The position numbers and the translations under genes were made by a program. This document shows positions 5,145 through 54,573 of a stretch of 64,000 nt of DNA, piece by piece; the first letter of the stretch is position 1, and the number at the start of each line of letters is the position of its first letter. A model generated the notes under the pieces. That model was not told the DNA's origin. It searched no databases and was given only the letters and a program-made list of their open reading frames with translations. The stretch is from Tanypteryx hageni. Taxonomy: Eukaryota; Arthropoda; Insecta; Odonata; Petaluridae. Where the stretch lies: NCBI GenBank assembly GCA_028673005.1, contig CM054113.1, positions 209,179,504-209,243,503 of the forward strand, written 5' to 3'.

Positions 5145-5489
5145 GATCCTTTGTTTAATATTGTTGAATGACTGAAATGAAACTGAGAGAACATCAATTG
5201 AAGCAGGATTAATGCGCAACCCAAGTAGATACTTTGTTTCCTTTGTTCTGTTTACATTGTATGAACTGTGAACTATGAACGAATGAGAAATACGAGTGTG
5301 CAAATACTTTCTTGACACTGAAAATTGTTTTTTCGTTCTCTTATAATTTTTTGTTCACTTTATCAATTTGTAACATTTTGTCTAATAAGTTCATTTTGAT
5401 CAATGGCTTGTTGGTGTCAGTAAAGTAATTGTAAAAAAACGAGGTGTGCAAATAATTTTTTTGCCCACTGTGTGTATATATATATATAT

Positions 5490-5916
5490 TCTTGCAATAG
5501 GCTCCCACCCCTGCGGAAAACTTCGGTGCCTCACTTGCCCTATCCACCTACCATCATCTTCTTTCTTGAGTCCCTCCACCAACATCACCTACCCCATCAC
5601 CTCCAGAAGCAACTGCACCACCCGTAACGTCATTTACCTCCTTACCTGCACCCTTTGTTCCACGTTTTACGTAGGCCTCACCAGCAATCCGTTAAACATC
5701 CGAATGAACGGTCACCGGAATAGCGTTTCTCTCAGACGCCCCCTCCCAGTTGCATTACACGCTAATACCCATAATGTCCCCTTCAATAGTTGCTACAATG
5801 TTAGGATTATTCGCGCTTTACCCTATGACACTCCTGCCCCCCTTCTCCGACACTGGGAACTAGCACATATCCATCTTCTCGACTCTTTCTCTCCGCCTGG
5901 CCTCAACCTCCGCTAA
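5490..5916 (+). pseudogene. GIY-YIG endonuclease domain of a Penelope-like element (fragment)
   Basis: Penelope-like elements fuse a telomerase-related reverse transcriptase to a C-terminal GIY-YIG nuclease that nicks the target. Here about 140 residues of that end survive in one open frame. Visible are the Cys-rich CGKLRCLTCP, the GIY-equivalent NVIYLLTC, the YIG-equivalent FYVGLTSNPLNIRMNGHR, and a terminal helix WELAHIHLLDSF ending PGLN. The reverse transcriptase half is missing: upstream sequence is a TA run and the Tc1 end. The frame is intact but without the RT it cannot act alone. Confidence 0.88.
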
Positions 5917-6094
5917 CCCTGTTAGCCCCCTTACAATGTATCCTTGTTACATTGTAGTTATTTGCACTTTCCCTTACCACACTCCCTCTTTATTGGCTAT
6001 CCACCCCTCCTACTCCCCACCTCCTCCAATCATCAACCATCCCACATCACCCTGTCATTCCCCGCCCAGTGTGTCACTTTACGTTACTCTTTCG

Positions 6095-6120
6095 CTGAAG
6101 AAGGGCATAGGCCCGATAAG
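6095..6120 (+). ncRNA. Hammerhead-ribozyme-like core in Penelope 3' region, copy 1
   Basis: The order is CTGAAGA (6095-6101), a stem GGGC/GCCC (6103-6106 with 6111-6114) and GATAAG. This matches the hammerhead layout CUGANGA, stem II, GAAA, except that GAAA has become GATA. Penelope-like elements are known to carry such motifs. The A-to-T change in the core predicts an inactive copy. Confidence 0.55.
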
Positions 6121-6269
6121 CTTGCGTGTGTTTTTGTGTTCGTGTGTTTTACGTGTCTCTTCGACGCCCCCAGCAGCCTGCCAGCTTGGTCCTCAACTTG
6201 GTAAGTGTCCGCTGGGCTTCCCTCAACACCTTGTTGCCACCCTCATCACTACCTTTTCTTTTCCTTTAG

Positions 6270-6272
<3 letters not shown>

Positions 6273-6364
<92 letters not shown>
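6273..6364. repeat. (TA)n array between two Penelope fragments
   Basis: About 92 bases of uninterrupted TA starting at the 3' end of one Penelope fragment and ending at the next. Confidence 0.97.
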
Positions 6365-6366
<2 letters not shown>

Positions 6367-6602
6367 ATGTCAACAAGGTGTTGGGATGAGTTCTCTCTCT
6401 GTAGCTGAAGAAGGAGTAGTTCCGAAAGCTTTACGTTTGTGATGTTTCTGTGTTTTTGTGTTATTTTACGTGTGTCGCTTCGACATCCCCGGGGCCTCGC
6501 CAACCTGAAGTCGTCTGATTGGTGAGTGCTCACTGGGTTTCCTCATCCCAACACCTTGTTGACATCCATATATTCATTTTACCGTTCCTTTTCCGTAAGT
6601 TG

Positions 6603-6603
<1 letters not shown>
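6365..6603 (+). mobile_element. Penelope-like 3' fragment, copy 2
   Basis: Homologous in order to the tail of the previous copy but diverged: CTGAAGAAGG with GAAAGC (6405-6429), TTACGTGTGTCGCTTCGAC, then GGTGAGTGCTCACTGGG and CAACACCTTGTTGACATCC. It ends in CCGTAAGTTGT and a (TA)n array. No coding sequence is left. Confidence 0.75.
6405..6432 (+). ncRNA. Hammerhead-ribozyme-like core in Penelope 3' region, copy 2
   Basis: CTGAAGA (6405-6411), short stem GGA/TCC (6413-6415 with 6421-6423) and an intact GAAA (6424-6427). Stem III and stem I are not convincing in this copy, so activity is doubtful. Its value is that the core is conserved in two diverged family members. Confidence 0.5.

Positions 6604-6670
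<67 letters not shown>
6604..6670. repeat. (TA)n array
   Basis: Uninterrupted TA between the second Penelope tail and the TAGGGTGGTCC element end. Confidence 0.97.
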
Positions 6671-28759: not shown

Positions 28760-31700
28760 ATGGATCCTTTCGAAGAAAACCGATTGAAAAGAAGATATTC
28801 AAAATTGTTAGAAAAACTAAGAAAGAAGACAAAATTTACAGCGAAAGATTTGGTTACTTTGGCATTATTTTACTACAAAGTTAGTGCAACTAATAAAAAA
28901 TTGAAATTATCGATGTTTTTGCATCAAAAATATTTCTATATTTAATCACTGAGTAATTTACATTTTTTATGATTTTAATTGCGATAATATGATATAATGC
29001 GATGTGGTAATATGCTCTTTTGTATTGTGTATACATTTTCTCATAGTTTATATTCAGTCTTTATGAAATGTTACCATAGTTTCAAAAGAAATGAATTTAA
29101 AAGAATACTTTGATATCCCTATGTTTTCTTTCACGAATAGGTGACATCTATTGCTCCAATTGATCGTCGCATGTTTAGGGTCGTCATTCACAACAGTTTG
29201 GATATGACGGATGATACCCTAATGGACCGAATTTTCCTAGCTTTCGATACAAAGAGCGACAAATTAATTTCCATGTCGGAATTAATCTGTGGACTGTCCA
29301 TGTTTCTTCGAGGCACGCAGAAAGAGAAGATTGAGTATTGTTTTTCGGTAACATCTCCGTCAATTATGGTTTCTACCGCAATCTTTTTTCTCTTTCTTCA
29401 GTCATTCATTTCAGCATTTTGTTAATGACAGTCGAAGCGGAACTAAATTAAACAGGCAAATTTACGCATAAGTATTTTGCTTCACATTGGCCAAAAAGAT
29501 ATTTTAAGAATAAATTGAGTGCATGGAAAACATTTAATTTTTCGTTTGATCATTTGAAAACGGTACCTTAAATAATATACAGATTTGGAAATTCTTATTG
29601 CTTTGCGTTAAATTACCTAAAGAAATAATCTTGAAAGATAAATAGATATGTTGCAATGATTGACAAAAATTTTAATTCAATGGTGACTATCACTATTCTA
29701 TGAATGCATATGCATTTCTTTTAGTTTCTTTCTCTATATATATTTTTATCTGACGACTCCTATATCTACATGAGAGATTGTATGCTCTAAAGCAGGTTTT
29801 ATCAACCTTTTTATTTTCGTACCACCAAATAAAAAACGAAAATGTTCGCGTACCAACATAGTTAGATTGACGGCAGTTTAAATCAATTTAAATTCAGATA
29901 TTGTAATGGTGTAGTGTGCCAACAATCGTTCATGTAATTTTTTAATTGAATTAAGTAAACAACAATATTTTAAGCTATAGGCAAAACTGTTTCTATTTTT
30001 TTTCAAGGACCACATTGCACTGGCTTGCGTACCACTTGTGGTACGCGTACCACAGGTTGAAAATCCCTGCTTTAAAGGATAATAAAGGACATTATTATTG
30101 TTTCAAAATTAAGAAATATTTGGCGATTTCTGTAATGGTTTTGGGTCGGACAAACGAGTTGGTAGGTCAAGTTATTGACTTTTTATTTGGGAGGCATAAA
30201 CTTGAATATAAATTCAAGGAGAGGGAGAGAAATCGTTTCTCGGTCAAGTTCACTCTTATATCCTTCCCTTTCTCTCCTTGAATGGGTTTAACGTCGTTAT
30301 AGTTTACGCTGACATGAGTTGGTAGGCAGAGTAAAAAGTTACAATGGATAATATTAATTTTTATCTAGTCTTGAATCCCGGAAAAACTTTAAGAAGTTCA
30401 CAATCTACTGTAAAGTGCAATTCGTCGTGAATTAAATTAAGTTGTTTTGGCTTGGGATCTATGTTTATGTTAAGAACGCAGCCAATTTATGAGTTGTAAT
30501 ATGTCGTCTTAAGTCTACCATATACAGGGTGTACCATTTAAAACGCAACCCAAAACTCAGTATTGTTCACAAGCGTAGATATTGCGCCAAGAGGGGTTCT
30601 TTCCCTATTTGTTGATTCCCCTCACACTACTGTGCACGCGCATGTCAAGATGACCTTGACTATCTCATAGCTGACGTCCTCAGTTGCTGAATAGCGTTGT
30701 AGACGCAAACATGGTTTTTACCCAAGGAGAACGTGTGTTTATTGTTGAGTATTATTTTTCTTCGAAATCTTTTACTGCAGATCGTGAGGCATTCAGGAAT
30801 GTATATCCAGCAAAGCAGTGGCTGCTGGTGACTAAAATATCTGGGTCTTCTGCAGAAAAACTACACCCAAATATGCTATTCAAGAGACGCCACAAAACAT
30901 ATTCTTTTACTTACCTTTAAATAGTGTGGATAACGGCAGTATGGTTGTCAAAGCATCGTTCATAATCCGTGAAGCACTCCATCCAACATTCACAAGATAC
31001 GAATACACAGTACATACACAGGATAACGAGTACTTACACAGGTTAATAACTCACTTGATTGTTTAAAATTTTAATTCGATACGGCGATCTTTTTTGTTGG
31101 CGAATTTGTCAATGACTTTCATTAAAATTGGGTATTCTAGAAACAAACTTGCGTTCTATGAACAGCATTGCCAATGCTGTTAATCGTTCCTCACACACTG
31201 TGTTTCGAAGAAATGGCTTAATTCTTTTTAATGTAGAAGAACAACGTTTAATAGATTGTGTTAAGTTCTGTGGGGCGTTTGAATTGGCTCCTCGTGGTCA
31301 TGACGGCACATAAACCTACAGACAACCGAGTGCGATACTAGGTCCCTGGCGCGGTTTCATTTCCCGTAAACCTAATATTATTCCCCCTTTTTCCTTTTAT
31401 TTTACCTTTCCTGTGCGAGTGTTTGTGGTTGCCTAGTAGATCTCTGTCGCGGTCGTACAGACTCTCAAACCTAGCAACGGTGTGATTTTCGGGTCCCTGG
31501 CGCAGATTAATCTCTCGCAAACCCGGCTCCATTTTTATCCTTTTTCCATCTTTAGGATTAGTGTTTGTGCGATTGAGTGAGTGGATGTGTGACTTCAGAT
31601 CCCTGGTGTGGAGTAACACCCCCTAATGCTGTAAGTTTGTATTTTTCATTTTCTTTGACTTTTCGCCTCCTTTCTTTTTCTCCCCCTTTTTCCTCTCTCT

Positions 31701-34700
31701 CATTTTTGAACTTTACGGTTAAGGAGTTAGATTTTTCATTTAACATTAATTTCGCAGTAGTCTCCACCTTTACCTATCTATAATATACCATTCAATAAAA
31801 AATTCATGAAACAGGAAGTGTTTATGACAGAAAACATGTTCGTCGTCGAACAGTTTTAACAGACGATAGATAACGTGTGCAACATTGAGGAAAGACTGTG
31901 GCAATCGCCACGGAAATCTTTGAGAATACTTTCCCAGCAAATTAGATTGTCATTGGGAAGCACAGATCGAGTGAAACAACAACTGAAGTTGCGTCTGTTC
32001 CGATTTGAAGCTGTACAGCAACTTCAACAACTGTATACAATTCCAAGGGTCCGTTATTGCCGTTGGTTTCTCAATTTCATACGTGATAGGATAAATATGT
32101 TAAACAAGTGGACACATAAACAGTCAAAATAGACAAACTTGGAGTGACGTAAATCCTCAACCTGTTCGTGAAACACCTTTGCATTCTGTGAAAATTGGTG
32201 TTTGGTGTGCATTGTCACGACGACGAATAGTAGGACCACTGTTCTTCGAAGAAACCATTAACGCAGAGCGATATCAGGACATTTTGATGGTTTGTTACTT
32301 TGTTAGAAGAAGATGAAAGAGGCTGCAGGTTTCAGCATAATGGAGTGACTGCCCATACCGCCAACACAACAGCTCTGATGAAAGATTTCTTTTGTGTGTA
32401 TTGTTGCGTACGGCCTTTGGCCAGCGCAATCTCCAGACCTTACACCTCCAGACTTCTTTTTATGGGGATATCTGAAAGAAACAGCCTACAGGAGCAACCC
32501 GCATACTTTAGAAGAACTCAAACAGAACATCGAACATACTATTTTAAGTATTGAGCAAACAACACTCCGCCGCGTTGCACCGAACACAGTGTAAAGGGTC
32601 GAAGCATGTCTTCAAGAAGGAGGTAGACATTTTAAGCACCTTTTGTGAAGTGGTTAACACTATTTGTAACAAATAACTAACAATATGTAGTGTATATTTA
32701 ATAAAACTTGTAATAAATGATACTTTCTTCCTGTGGGTTGCATTTTAAATGGTACACCCTGTAGATCCATCTCTATTAATAAAAAGCAATGTGGGTGTGG
32801 ACAGCATATCTCAAAAACCAAGGAACTTAGAGCCTTAAAACTTGGTACACTTACTAATAGGACCATGAGTATAGGCAAATCGAGGCCAGAATTTTGATTT
32901 TTGGCGGGAGGAGGAAAGGGGAGGGGGGGGGGCATTTCCCATAAGATAACACGTAAAAATTTTCGACTTACAGGCTTTTACTTTTTGCAAATTAAAATTA
33001 GAAAGAATTTACCTACGATCTTCGGATCTGGACTGTTTTAAAGAAAAATGAATAATGTTTCTTATTCTTATCGTCACATTTTACCTACGACACAAAATCG
33101 CCAAGGTTCTACGTTTAAATAATATTTATTGGTAAATTTTAAGCTTTTTAACAATATGTTGCCTTGCCGACCGTGTCATTTTTGAATCTCGAGATTGTAT
33201 TGTCATCTTAATCCTTATACTCTATGCGTAAGGAATGCGTGCTTTGAATGCTTTAATACGAGAGAGAGAGAGAGAGAGAGAGAAAAACAGAGGGAGAGCG
33301 AGACAAAATTAAATGTCCCGTATATTAAAAATAATTTTGGGCGTAAAAGAATTGTATAGCGTAATGTACTTTTTTGTCATACAATTTCTATTCACCCAAA
33401 ACTATTTTTACTCTCTGGAACACACAATGATTTGAATTATATATTTATTGCTTACTTTTTAGTGCATGTAAAATTAAGTTTCATTAATTTTTATTTCAAT
33501 TTTAACTTAATACTTAATTCACTCATACCCGTCATATTTTACGGGCAATTACGCTAGTTTACAATTATCTTCTGCCAGCACTAAGCGAAATGGAGATTTT
33601 GTCAATTTAGACTAAGGTAATTCGTATTCTGACGCGTACTCGCTAGTGTCCGAATCAGTGGCGTAGCCAGAGGGGGTACATGTGCACCCCCCAAACTTCT
33701 CCAGAAAATATGAAATTTTCAGTGCGTTAACAAACACTGTAATAATGTTAATTAAAACGCGATCGTAGTATCAATATTAATGAATAGTTCTTTAAAATTC
33801 AGGAAATTATTTGTGCTAAAATAATTTATGTATTTTTATTATTAAAAAAAATAGTATGGTGCAACCACCAAACCAAATTTCTGACTACGTCACTGGTCCG
33901 AGCATTGGTTTCCAAGCAAAAAATGTTATTATCTATGTTGGACTGATCAAAGTTCAACAACGGACATAATTGAACTGCAAAACGTGCATTAATCACTAAA
34001 ATTAATCATTTTTTATGAGAACATTTCTCGACGTATAAGCTATAATCGGCAACAATTGAGTCCAGACCCACATTTACTCATCAATACGTTTGCTCTATCT
34101 TGTTCTTCAGTGGCGTAACTAGAAGCTGATCAAAGTTCAACAACGGACGTAATTGAACTGCAGAACGTGCATTAATCACTAAAATTAATCATTTTTTATG
34201 AGAATATTTCTCGAAGTATGAGCTATAATCGGCAACAATTGAGTCCAGACCCACATTTCCTCATCAACACGTTTGCTCCATCTTGTTCTTTAGTGACGTT
34301 ACTAGGAGCAGAAGTGCCCGTGGCAAAATATTATCTATGGCCCTCCTCCCACAATAAAACAAAAATCGAGGCTCCCCCTCGTCCCCCCATACCCCTCCCG
34401 GACTCTTGGGCCCGTGGCCACCCTATAGTCACACCATTGTTGTTGTACTCTCATAGGTGTACGACGTGATGGACGAAGGGTATATCAGCCGCGACCAAAT
34501 GTTTCAATTCCTTCGAAAAAGCATCGTCCGAGTCTCATCCGACGAAGACTCCGAGGAAGGTGCCAAAGACCTCGTGGAACTTCTTCTAAAGCATTGCGAT
34601 AAGGACAAGGACGGCCGAGTGTCTCTGGAAGACTTCCGCAGCACCGTGATGGATGAACCACTCCTCCTAGAGGCCCTGGGTCCTTGCCTCCCCACAAGAT

Positions 34701-48417: not shown

Positions 48418-48419
<2 letters not shown>

Positions 48420-48542
48420 GTGTGCGTGTTTATTTACGTGTGTCTCTTCGACGCCCCCAGCAGCCTGCCAACTTGGTAAGTGTCCGCTGGGCTTCCTTCA
48501 ACACCTTGTTGACACTCTCATCACTACCTTTTCTTTTCCTGA

Positions 48543-48547
<5 letters not shown>
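48418..48547 (+). mobile_element. Penelope-like 3' fragment, copy 3
   Basis: It matches 6137-6272 closely (TACGTGTGTCTCTTCGACGC, AACTTGGTAAGTGTCCGCTG, CAACACCTTGTTG), with a deletion of TCCTCAACTTGG relative to copy 1. It ends in CCTGAAGTTTATATATA and (TA)n. The hammerhead-like core is absent because the fragment starts downstream of it. Confidence 0.88.

Positions 48548-48605
<58 letters not shown>
48548..48605. repeat. (TA)n array
   Basis: TA run continuing from the 3' end of the Penelope fragment. Confidence 0.95.
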
Positions 48606-48612
<7 letters not shown>

Positions 48613-48888
48613 TATATTTCATCATTCGATCTATGAGAATGGATGCTCGAAATCTATTCATCTTTAGCCCCCTAAATCTGGGAATCCTGGGCACCAGCCC
48701 ATATACGTAGCCTGTGGTTAAATTCCTCCTGATCACCCTATATTTCAGCGTGGATAATTCCATCCCATTTGTTAGATATCTATTGATCGCAACAAAAAAT
48801 AAATACCTCGGGGTTAGTATTAATGCCGAATAAGTACAAGGAAACTCCTGAAATAAGGTTAGAATGGCCGTAAAAAGCAGACAACACA

Positions 48889-48981: not shown

Positions 48982-49528
48982 CGCTGTTCGCTGGGGAAGT
49001 CTACAACCCAAGAGAATACAACACAGTTTGAATTAGTGTAATACCATTACGACCATAGTTAATGTCACTTTCCTTCCCATTGCCCTATACACTTTGTAAA
49101 ATTCGTAAAGTTCAGTATGATCTCCAGATTGCATCTATATTTCTTCTGTAGTTTTATCACTGCCATTTTCAGCCGCACACATTAACGTTTTTAAAACTGA
49201 ATTGTGACGGTAGTCTATTTTATGATGTTACTGAAGTGAAGGAGTTTCGATAGAATGGTGAAGATCAGCGAAAAAGTATCATATAAATTTCCATCGTTGT
49301 TATCTAATTTCAAATCAAACTTGGAAAGGGAAAATAAGAAGTACGTACTTATTAAAGTATCTCCAACGGTTACGAAAAGGTTATGAAAAACCATATGCGC
49401 ATTTCGGCTTCAAGGTAGCCGTCATAAGCGGTATTCATCGATACTAGATTCTAAACTGCTCTTTAGACGAGACGAACATAAGATTTTTTATACATTTTTC
49501 ATCGCTGTTGGAGGTGCTGGAGTAAGTG

Positions 49529-54203: not shown

Positions 54204-54215
54204 TACTATGCTATT

Positions 54216-54561
54216 TAAAAAAGGGAAATGGAGACTACGGTGTACAGATTGGAATTAAAATTTAAAACTCCTTAACCGTAAATTTACCCAGAGGGCACTC
54301 ACACGTCAATAAGAAATAAGGAAAATTAAAATTATACTTACAAGTTTGCAGGACGATGATGGCCTACAGGGACCTGTTGTCAAAAACTAGCCTAAAAAAA
54401 GAAAAAGAAAAAAGAAAAACACACACGCACAAGCACTCTGGAAATCTCTAGATACGTATTTCGGGAGCTATGCTCCCATCTTCAGTAGCTGAAGTCGTAT
54501 TATTGACGTGTGAGTGCCCTCTGGGTAAATTTACGGTTAAGGAGTTTTAAATTTTAATTCC
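54216..54561 (-). mobile_element. Penelope-related foldback element with 62-bp perfect inverted repeat and 12-bp target duplication
   Basis: TACTATGCTATT is perfectly duplicated at 54204-54215 and 54562-54573. Inside, 54251-54312 is the exact reverse complement of 54500-54561. The 187-bp spacer carries a hammerhead-like core on the minus strand. The arms hold GTGAGTGCCCTCTGGGT, which parallels the GTAAGTGTCCGCTGGG and GTGAGTGCTCACTGGG motifs of the Penelope tails at 6.2, 6.5 and 48.5 kb. No coding sequence. Confidence 0.85.
54451..54485 (-). ncRNA. Hammerhead ribozyme core, best-preserved copy
   Basis: Minus strand: CTGAAGA (54485-54479), a perfect 6-bp stem GGGAGC/GCTCCC around ATA (54477-54463), GAAA (54462-54459), then the palindrome TACGTA followed by TC (54458-54451). 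This is the type I order with a very short, self-complementary stem III, the form known from Penelope-like elements and thought to work as a dimer. Cleavage would be expected after the C at 54451. Stem I next to the core pairs for only about 3 bp. Confidence 0.7.
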
Positions 54562-54573
54562 TACTATGCTATT

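Follow-up and report, generated by a model that had tools for sequence, protein, structure and literature searches.

A minimal type I hammerhead ribozyme motif in a short Penelope-like insertion of the Tanypteryx hageni genome

Introduction

Cervera and De la Pena in 2014 and Lunse et al. in 2017 reportedly described minimal hammerhead ribozymes of type I in Penelope-like elements. As portrayed in the citing literature, they lie in the pLTR, follow the type I order and have a stem III that is self-complementary and very short, as suits dimers; judged by that portrayal, the site described here is like them in all these respects and differs in an extra nucleotide after A9 and in an overlap with an ORF end. 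According to the part of PMC7761336 covered here, what Penelope hammerheads do is a mystery.

Two described elements come close to the present one. Poseidon of Anolis carolinensis (PAc), according to the sections of PMC11167929 used for comparison, shares with the Tanypteryx family the RT and GIY-YIG domains, the pLTRs, a hammerhead at the pLTR/ORF boundary and two internal RT start sites producing a tail, which these sites bound alike on the two strands. The PAc hammerhead overlaps the ORF start, whereas that of the Tanypteryx family overlaps the ORF end, and no cutting of PAc RNA was seen without protein (PMC11167929, same sections). Penelope of the rotifer Adineta vaga, as excerpted from PMC3846280, shares an inverted pLTR ahead of a direct pLTR, a tail (there on one inverted pLTR), target duplications of 8-10 bp and solo pLTRs, whereas the copy described here has an inverted pLTR of just 62 nt and is missing the ORF. 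Hammerheads are not mentioned in the main text of PMC3846280. The available portions of these two papers (PMC3846280, PMC11167929) describe inverted pLTRs, a tail and target duplications of small size as parts of Penelope. For the extra nucleotide, the nearest likeness is in the excerpt of PMC3705267 on CChMVd(+), which has a natural, unpaired extra residue after A9 and in which a change of A10 to U raised trans-cleavage 3-4-fold; the residue is A there and U here, and the viroid is an unrelated context.

In this work, we analyzed a 64-kb stretch of Tanypteryx hageni DNA (the window), in which a sequence-only reading had claimed a hammerhead core on the minus strand at 54451..54485. The locus is mostly ordinary, being a known kind of ribozyme inside an insertion of a known element kind. 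What is less expected, and most noteworthy, is that in this family the ribozyme overlaps the end of a coding frame with its predicted cut at the stop codon.

Results and discussion

Structure of the hammerhead core

The minus strand from 54488 to 54448 reads CUA-CUGAAGA-U-GGGAGC-AUA-GCUCCC-GAA-AUACGUAU-C-UAG (Table 1). Stem I is formed by CUA (54488-54486) and UAG (54450-54448) through 3 bp, and the first core strand CUGAAGA (54485-54479) is followed by one extra U. Stem II consists of GGGAGC (54477-54472) and GCUCCC (54468-54463), which make 6 bp around the loop AUA, and the second core strand GAA (54462-54460) leads into stem III and C17. The invariant type I core is complete (C3 U4 G5 A6 N G8 A9 / G12 A13 A14 / A15.1-U16.1, H17), and the three stems surround it with stem I as the open end. 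The core proposed from the sequence, with its invariant bases in order, its perfect 6-bp stem II closed by ATA and its predicted break just 3' of 54451, was borne out in this examination. Two details were corrected: stem III is self-complementary as claimed and is 8 nt long instead of 6, and the extra U between A9 and stem II had been overlooked. This U violates the consensus, which has no nucleotide at that point, and since an extra residue is natural there in CChMVd(+), we regard it as a deviation that is no bar to the class. Stem III can form 2 bp and a loop within a single copy and 8 bp between two copies, in support of the palindromic stem of dimer type that had been suggested. The small RNA motif in this Penelope remnant is probably self-cutting.

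Table 1. Features of the insertion and of the ribozyme (window positions)
Feature	Positions	Strand	Remark
Target-site duplication, left copy, 12 bp AATAGCATAGTA	54562..54573	-	
Partial inverted pLTR, 62-nt arm	54500..54561	-	exact reverse complement of 54251-54312
Direct pLTR	54251..54499	-	start TACGACTTCAG as in tabulated ORF-less copies
End of RT/GIY-YIG ORF in full-length relatives, ..TTSATEDGSIAPEIRI + stop UAG	54448..54498	-	stop at 54450-54448
Predicted core-masking hairpin CUUCAG-CUA-CUGAAG	54480..54494	-	P about 0.997 in 70-nt RNA
Minimal type I hammerhead ribozyme	54448..54488	-	one additional U (54478); predicted cleavage 3' of C 54451
Self-complementary stem III AUACGUAU, 8 nt	54452..54459	-	
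Right arm, 3' part of direct pLTR	54251..54312	-	
35-nt tail, ORF-region start of full-length copies	54216..54250	-	
Target-site duplication, right copy, 12 bp	54204..54215	-	

Tests of hammerhead identity

A motif of this size might be a chance resemblance to the hammerhead consensus, and the Rfam searches are in keeping with that possibility. No Rfam family reached its gathering score in the 64-kb window (Rfam 15), no hammerhead family was found near 54451-54485 by local search even at E up to 10, and the other Penelope copies at 6.1-6.6 kb likewise gave no Rfam hammerhead. We take this silence as weak evidence, because L008, an unproven hammerhead-like candidate on an IMG/VR contig, also scored far under the cut-offs, with 14.3 bits for Hammerhead_1 (cut-off 34) and 19.1 for RAGATH-1 (cut-off 56.3). 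A covariance model of our own, based on seven hammerheads that belong to other families of this genome, put the site first in the 64-kb window (34.4 bits, E 5e-6), a match that is partly circular because the members were chosen by a pattern that the site fits, so that stem II and the flanks are its only independent parts. The covariance-model check that the sequence-only reading had proposed thus gave no match with Rfam and a match with the model from the same genome. By the terms of that reading the Rfam outcome would count as a refutation, which we hold to be outweighed by the other tests.

The remaining tests speak against chance. First, a descriptor written post hoc, once the motif was known, asked for a stem II of 6 bp or more and a palindrome of 6 or more and tolerated up to one extra nucleotide. 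It matched this site in the real window and had no match in 1900 simulated 64-kb windows (first-order Markov). Second, the genome contains 1219 exact matches to the pattern CTGAAGANGGN{4,14}CCGAAANACG, many of which are copies of one family, versus none for the reversed pattern. Third, stem II covaries. The first 100 matches listed, nearly all in contig C1 order, contained 32 distinct 31-nt variants with at least four stem II types, two matches (28 and 32 nt) being omitted from the covariation. The stem II covariation score of the 32 variants was 0.377 compared with 0.158 in shuffles, and 88.0% of the stem II cells were paired compared with 74.2%, values that none of 500 shuffles reached. The pattern itself, however, fixes two of the six stem II pairs, and the shuffles overstate independence because the copies are related. 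When the stem II partners were slid against each other, at most 55.2% were paired. Measures that count pairs and types were not above the shuffles (453 and 267 of 500), and the extra nucleotide, present in 32 of 32 variants, is uninformative because the search pattern demands it. An excess of stem II covariation over shuffles is the outcome that tells against chance, and from these tests together we consider a chance resemblance extremely unlikely.

The core was intact by eye in 24 of 30 sampled copies, the other six being truncated (four) or mutated (two), and 21 of the 30 passed a stricter automatic test. In hammerhead pattern scans of viral contigs, which returned 21 and 2 loci, L008 was the only one of the 16 inspected among these 23 that looked hammerhead-like by eye.

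Structure of the insertion

The Penelope-like insertion extends from 54561 to 54216 and comprises 346 bp, namely a 62-nt inverted arm, a 249-nt direct part and a 35-nt tail. The two arms are 100% complementary, and the direct pLTR begins 14 nt ahead of the hammerhead core. The left flank ends in AATAGCATAGTA, and because the identical 12 bases stand again 35 nt beyond the right arm, the limits of the insert were placed at these positions; a flank-abutting repeat of this kind within 60 nt is expected at about 3e-5 of random breakpoints. No target duplication is found directly beside both arms, as the tail separates the right copy from its arm. The ORF lists of the window contain no Penelope ORF near the site, which the family ORF matches only through its last 47 residues.

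The sequence-only reading had placed the ribozyme in a Penelope-related element, as the full-length relatives with RT and GIY-YIG support, and had taken the foldback for a new alternative to the pseudo-LTR. The latter view was not upheld, the unit being a direct pLTR preceded by a partial inverted pLTR, together with a tail and a target-site duplication. The features of Penelope-like elements are observed, with the RT and GIY-YIG ORF in the full-length relatives, direct pLTRs and an inverted pLTR, the tail, whose 35 nt lie in the 30-40 nt range of the optional Penelope tail, and the 12-bp duplication, such duplications being short and variable in these elements. The foldback is a form assembled from described Penelope parts. 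The exact form, a 62-nt inverted arm without an ORF, was not found in the portions of PMC3846280 and PMC11167929 that were compared.

Relatives in the genome

In the search of the genome (1.68 Gb, 1022 contigs), 40 of 1439 candidates were scored and yielded at least 98 matches, a pLTR marker matched 784 times, and 32 genome stretches were taken for comparison. Two of them, L032 and L033, hold full-length elements, whose direct pLTRs are 2.73 and 2.72 kb apart and whose open frames have 845 codons from stop to stop with the first ATG at codon 17. One ORF encodes both RVT_1 (1.7e-12 and 3.5e-12) and GIY-YIG (3.6e-6). These elements stand in head-to-head pairs, in each of which the two 2538-nt ORFs are identical (0 differences), and the ORFs of the two pairs differ from each other at 2 bases. 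The first part of the direct pLTR of the window copy is 95.7% identical to L033 and L034. In addition, 16 of 44 tabulated pLTR copies, counting the window copy, lack ORF sequence ahead of the pLTR. Each of these 16 starts at one of the first six bases of TACGACTTC.., at a distance of 9-14 nt upstream of the core; the tabulated copies are a biased sample, consisting of the best matches to a query having that start.

Inverted pLTR pairs in head-to-head arrangement occur in L035-L039. Inverted copies without a tail end at arm position 63-65 in seven stretches (L035, L036, L037, L038, L043, L044 and L050), at 62 in the window copy and at 70 in the three C9 copies (L040-L042). Direct copies reach 95-97 of the 97-nt query, and 0-8 nt more where no ORF follows. 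Because inverted copies stop at 62-70 and direct copies at 95-97, we infer two RT start sites, as described for PAc (PMC11167929). Among eight relatives tested, target duplications of 8, 9, 10 and 10 bp were found in L035, L036, L037 and L043, and a convincing one was absent from L038 (7 bp, AT-rich) and from L040-L042 (4 bp).

Proposed insertion mechanism

The locus could also be read as a non-autonomous foldback or MITE-like DNA transposon, or as a retrozyme, that is mobile as a unit and carries the hammerhead incidentally. The perfect 62-nt arms would suit such an element, as would the inner arm breakpoint AATAA that the three C9 copies have in common with the window copy. However, the C9 copies keep 12 nt that are absent from the window copy, and they look like one duplicated locus because one flank is common to them; the inner breakpoints of other partial inverted copies differ (position 54, 131 and 157). 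Moreover, the right end extends 35 nt past the arm before the target duplication, so that the arms are not both element ends, and the direct part is 99.5% (187 nt) and 100% (97 nt) identical to the pLTR of L032, a coding copy. We therefore judge a unit of this kind to be very improbable. Non-LTR retrozymes, which the consulted part of PMC7761336 describes as non-coding tandem repeats of small size (about 150-300 bp) that have hammerheads and circular RNA, were ruled against by the lone hammerhead in the insertion and by its coding source family.

We consider it highly probable that the locus is a short, ORF-less Penelope-like insertion that arose by priming at two sites with a 12-bp target duplication and whose pLTR carries a hammerhead that would cut as a dimer or with the aid of protein. 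The anatomy, the family, the duplication, the tail and the covariation are observed, and the priming and the dimer action are proposed. The RT/endonuclease of the element would cut both target strands, and each strand would prime reverse transcription of element RNA near the ORF start, with some 33 nt between the two priming sites. One cDNA would reach back to the pLTR start, giving the direct pLTR and the tail, and the other would copy merely 62 nt, giving the inverted arm; joining and repair would then leave the target duplication. The hammerhead would most likely cut tandem or paired element RNAs 3' of 54451, as a dimer or helped by the element protein, because a long stem III can form only when two copies pair.

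Overlap with the ORF end

In the full-length copies, the ribozyme overlaps the last 13 codons of the ORF and its stop. The ORF ends in ..ACG ACT TCA GCT ACT GAA GAT GGG AGC ATA GCT CCC GAA ATA CGT ATC, then TAG, and C17 is the final base of the last sense codon, so that the predicted cut falls exactly between this codon and UAG. The consulted passages of the literature searched contained no earlier report of an overlap with an ORF end, a subject most likely to be treated in the two papers on minimal hammerheads that are known here through citations. Such an overlap allows constraint on RNA structure to be told apart from constraint on protein.

This bears on whether the hammerhead is a neutral relic, kept only as the code for a protein C-terminus. 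The motif is coding in the family of the window copy, the copies are much alike, and the predicted hairpin would mask the core, all of which would agree with a relic. However, stem II covaries across families. In L096, L097 and L103, stem II has A-U in place of G-C as its second pair, a change that alters the meaning of both codons (GGG to GAG, CCC to CTC), with the reservation that L096 is also without G12 and L103 without the first core strand. Furthermore, a TGA within CUGAAGA ends the ORF frame of the relative L125, which is 41% identical over 690 aligned residues; L081 has the same peptide ending and hence a stop at the core UGA, and stem II is still perfect in both. Based on these observations, we regard a mere relic as unlikely.

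L083 (minus strand) and L125 (plus strand, 2735) belong to another Penelope hammerhead family, in which stem I has 6 bp (TTGGCC/GGCCAA), position 17 is U and the ORF stop UGA lies within the core. In L085 (minus strand, 1501), a hammerhead-like site of the GGCTGC type, a putative EIRI frame meets a stop (TGA) directly after C17.

Folding and 5' ends of copies

Folding of monomer and dimer had been asked for beforehand. In the 70-nt monomer, the hairpin listed in Table 1 is predicted to mask the core from C3 to G8, and in the dimer the hammerhead is not the best fold, the two-strand hammerhead being predicted at -25.7 kcal/mol and the best dimer fold at -48.4. The masking hairpin is not general, since its P is 0.94 in L065, 0.07 in L077 and 0-0.24 in L081, L083, L125, L085 and L124.

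The 5' ends were examined in 30 copies retrieved through a marker 3' of the cut, which were the first 30 of 784 listed and all from contig C1. Fifteen extend past the 408-420 nt examined, seven begin inside the ORF, three at the pLTR start and four inside the hammerhead, two of these four being both arms of one locus; L103, an insertion variant with a broken core, was excluded from the count. None of the 29 copies with a determined start begins at the predicted cut, which speaks against cut RNA as the usual template and means that cleavage leaves no visible trace in insertions. This agrees with the in vitro result for PAc as given in the covered sections of PMC11167929.

One possible use of the overlap in this family is a switch at the ORF end; the sister family of L125 has its stop inside the core instead. 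The upstream hairpin and translating ribosomes would block the ribozyme, and untranslated or paired RNA would cut itself, shed its stop and thereby be split into coding and template RNA. We put this forward as a speculation that is probably wrong and rate its likelihood as low.

The Tanypteryx genome would serve as a test bed for the role of Penelope hammerheads, as it has long open ORFs, hundreds of similar copies and readable insertion ends, and it offers several hammerhead types with covarying stems.

Other Penelope and hammerhead-like sites

The window also contains the 3' end of a different Penelope family at 5389-6670 and 48419-48617 (plus strand), whose GIY-YIG ORF is 60% identical to P0001. 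We assign it to a different family because the family ORF of the insertion has no tblastn match at 5.4-6.7 kb at E 0.01. It has hammerhead-like copies at 6095 (GATA for GAAA) and at 6405, the latter also with an inverted arm (about 32 nt) in front, whose end is 14 nt away from the core, and a third pLTR fragment lies at 48.4 kb. Compared with the 5.4-6.7 kb pLTR, the part of our unit 3' of the hammerhead gave scores of 41 and 43, about 3 sd over the shuffle mean and below the maxima of 46 and 44 (300 shuffles); the motif GTGAGTGCCCTCTGGGT recurs in that pLTR with 2 mismatches, where 0.06 chance matches are expected in the window. Scans of viral and genome contigs found no relatives of the GIY-YIG protein at 5.5-5.9 kb, and a protein search with it found one.

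The second match of our covariance model in the window (27.6 bits, E 1.7e-4) is a degenerate hammerhead-like site at 49378-49441 (minus strand) with the core CTTATGA. The hammerhead-like motif of the IMG/VR contig, far under the Rfam cut-off, lies at L008:3731-3794 and has long stems I and III. Finally, the plus strand at 31340-31780 contains repeats of GGTCCCTGGCG together with a 19/20 arm match, followed by GTAGTCTCCA at nearly equal spacing, and is perhaps an older relative of the same pLTR.
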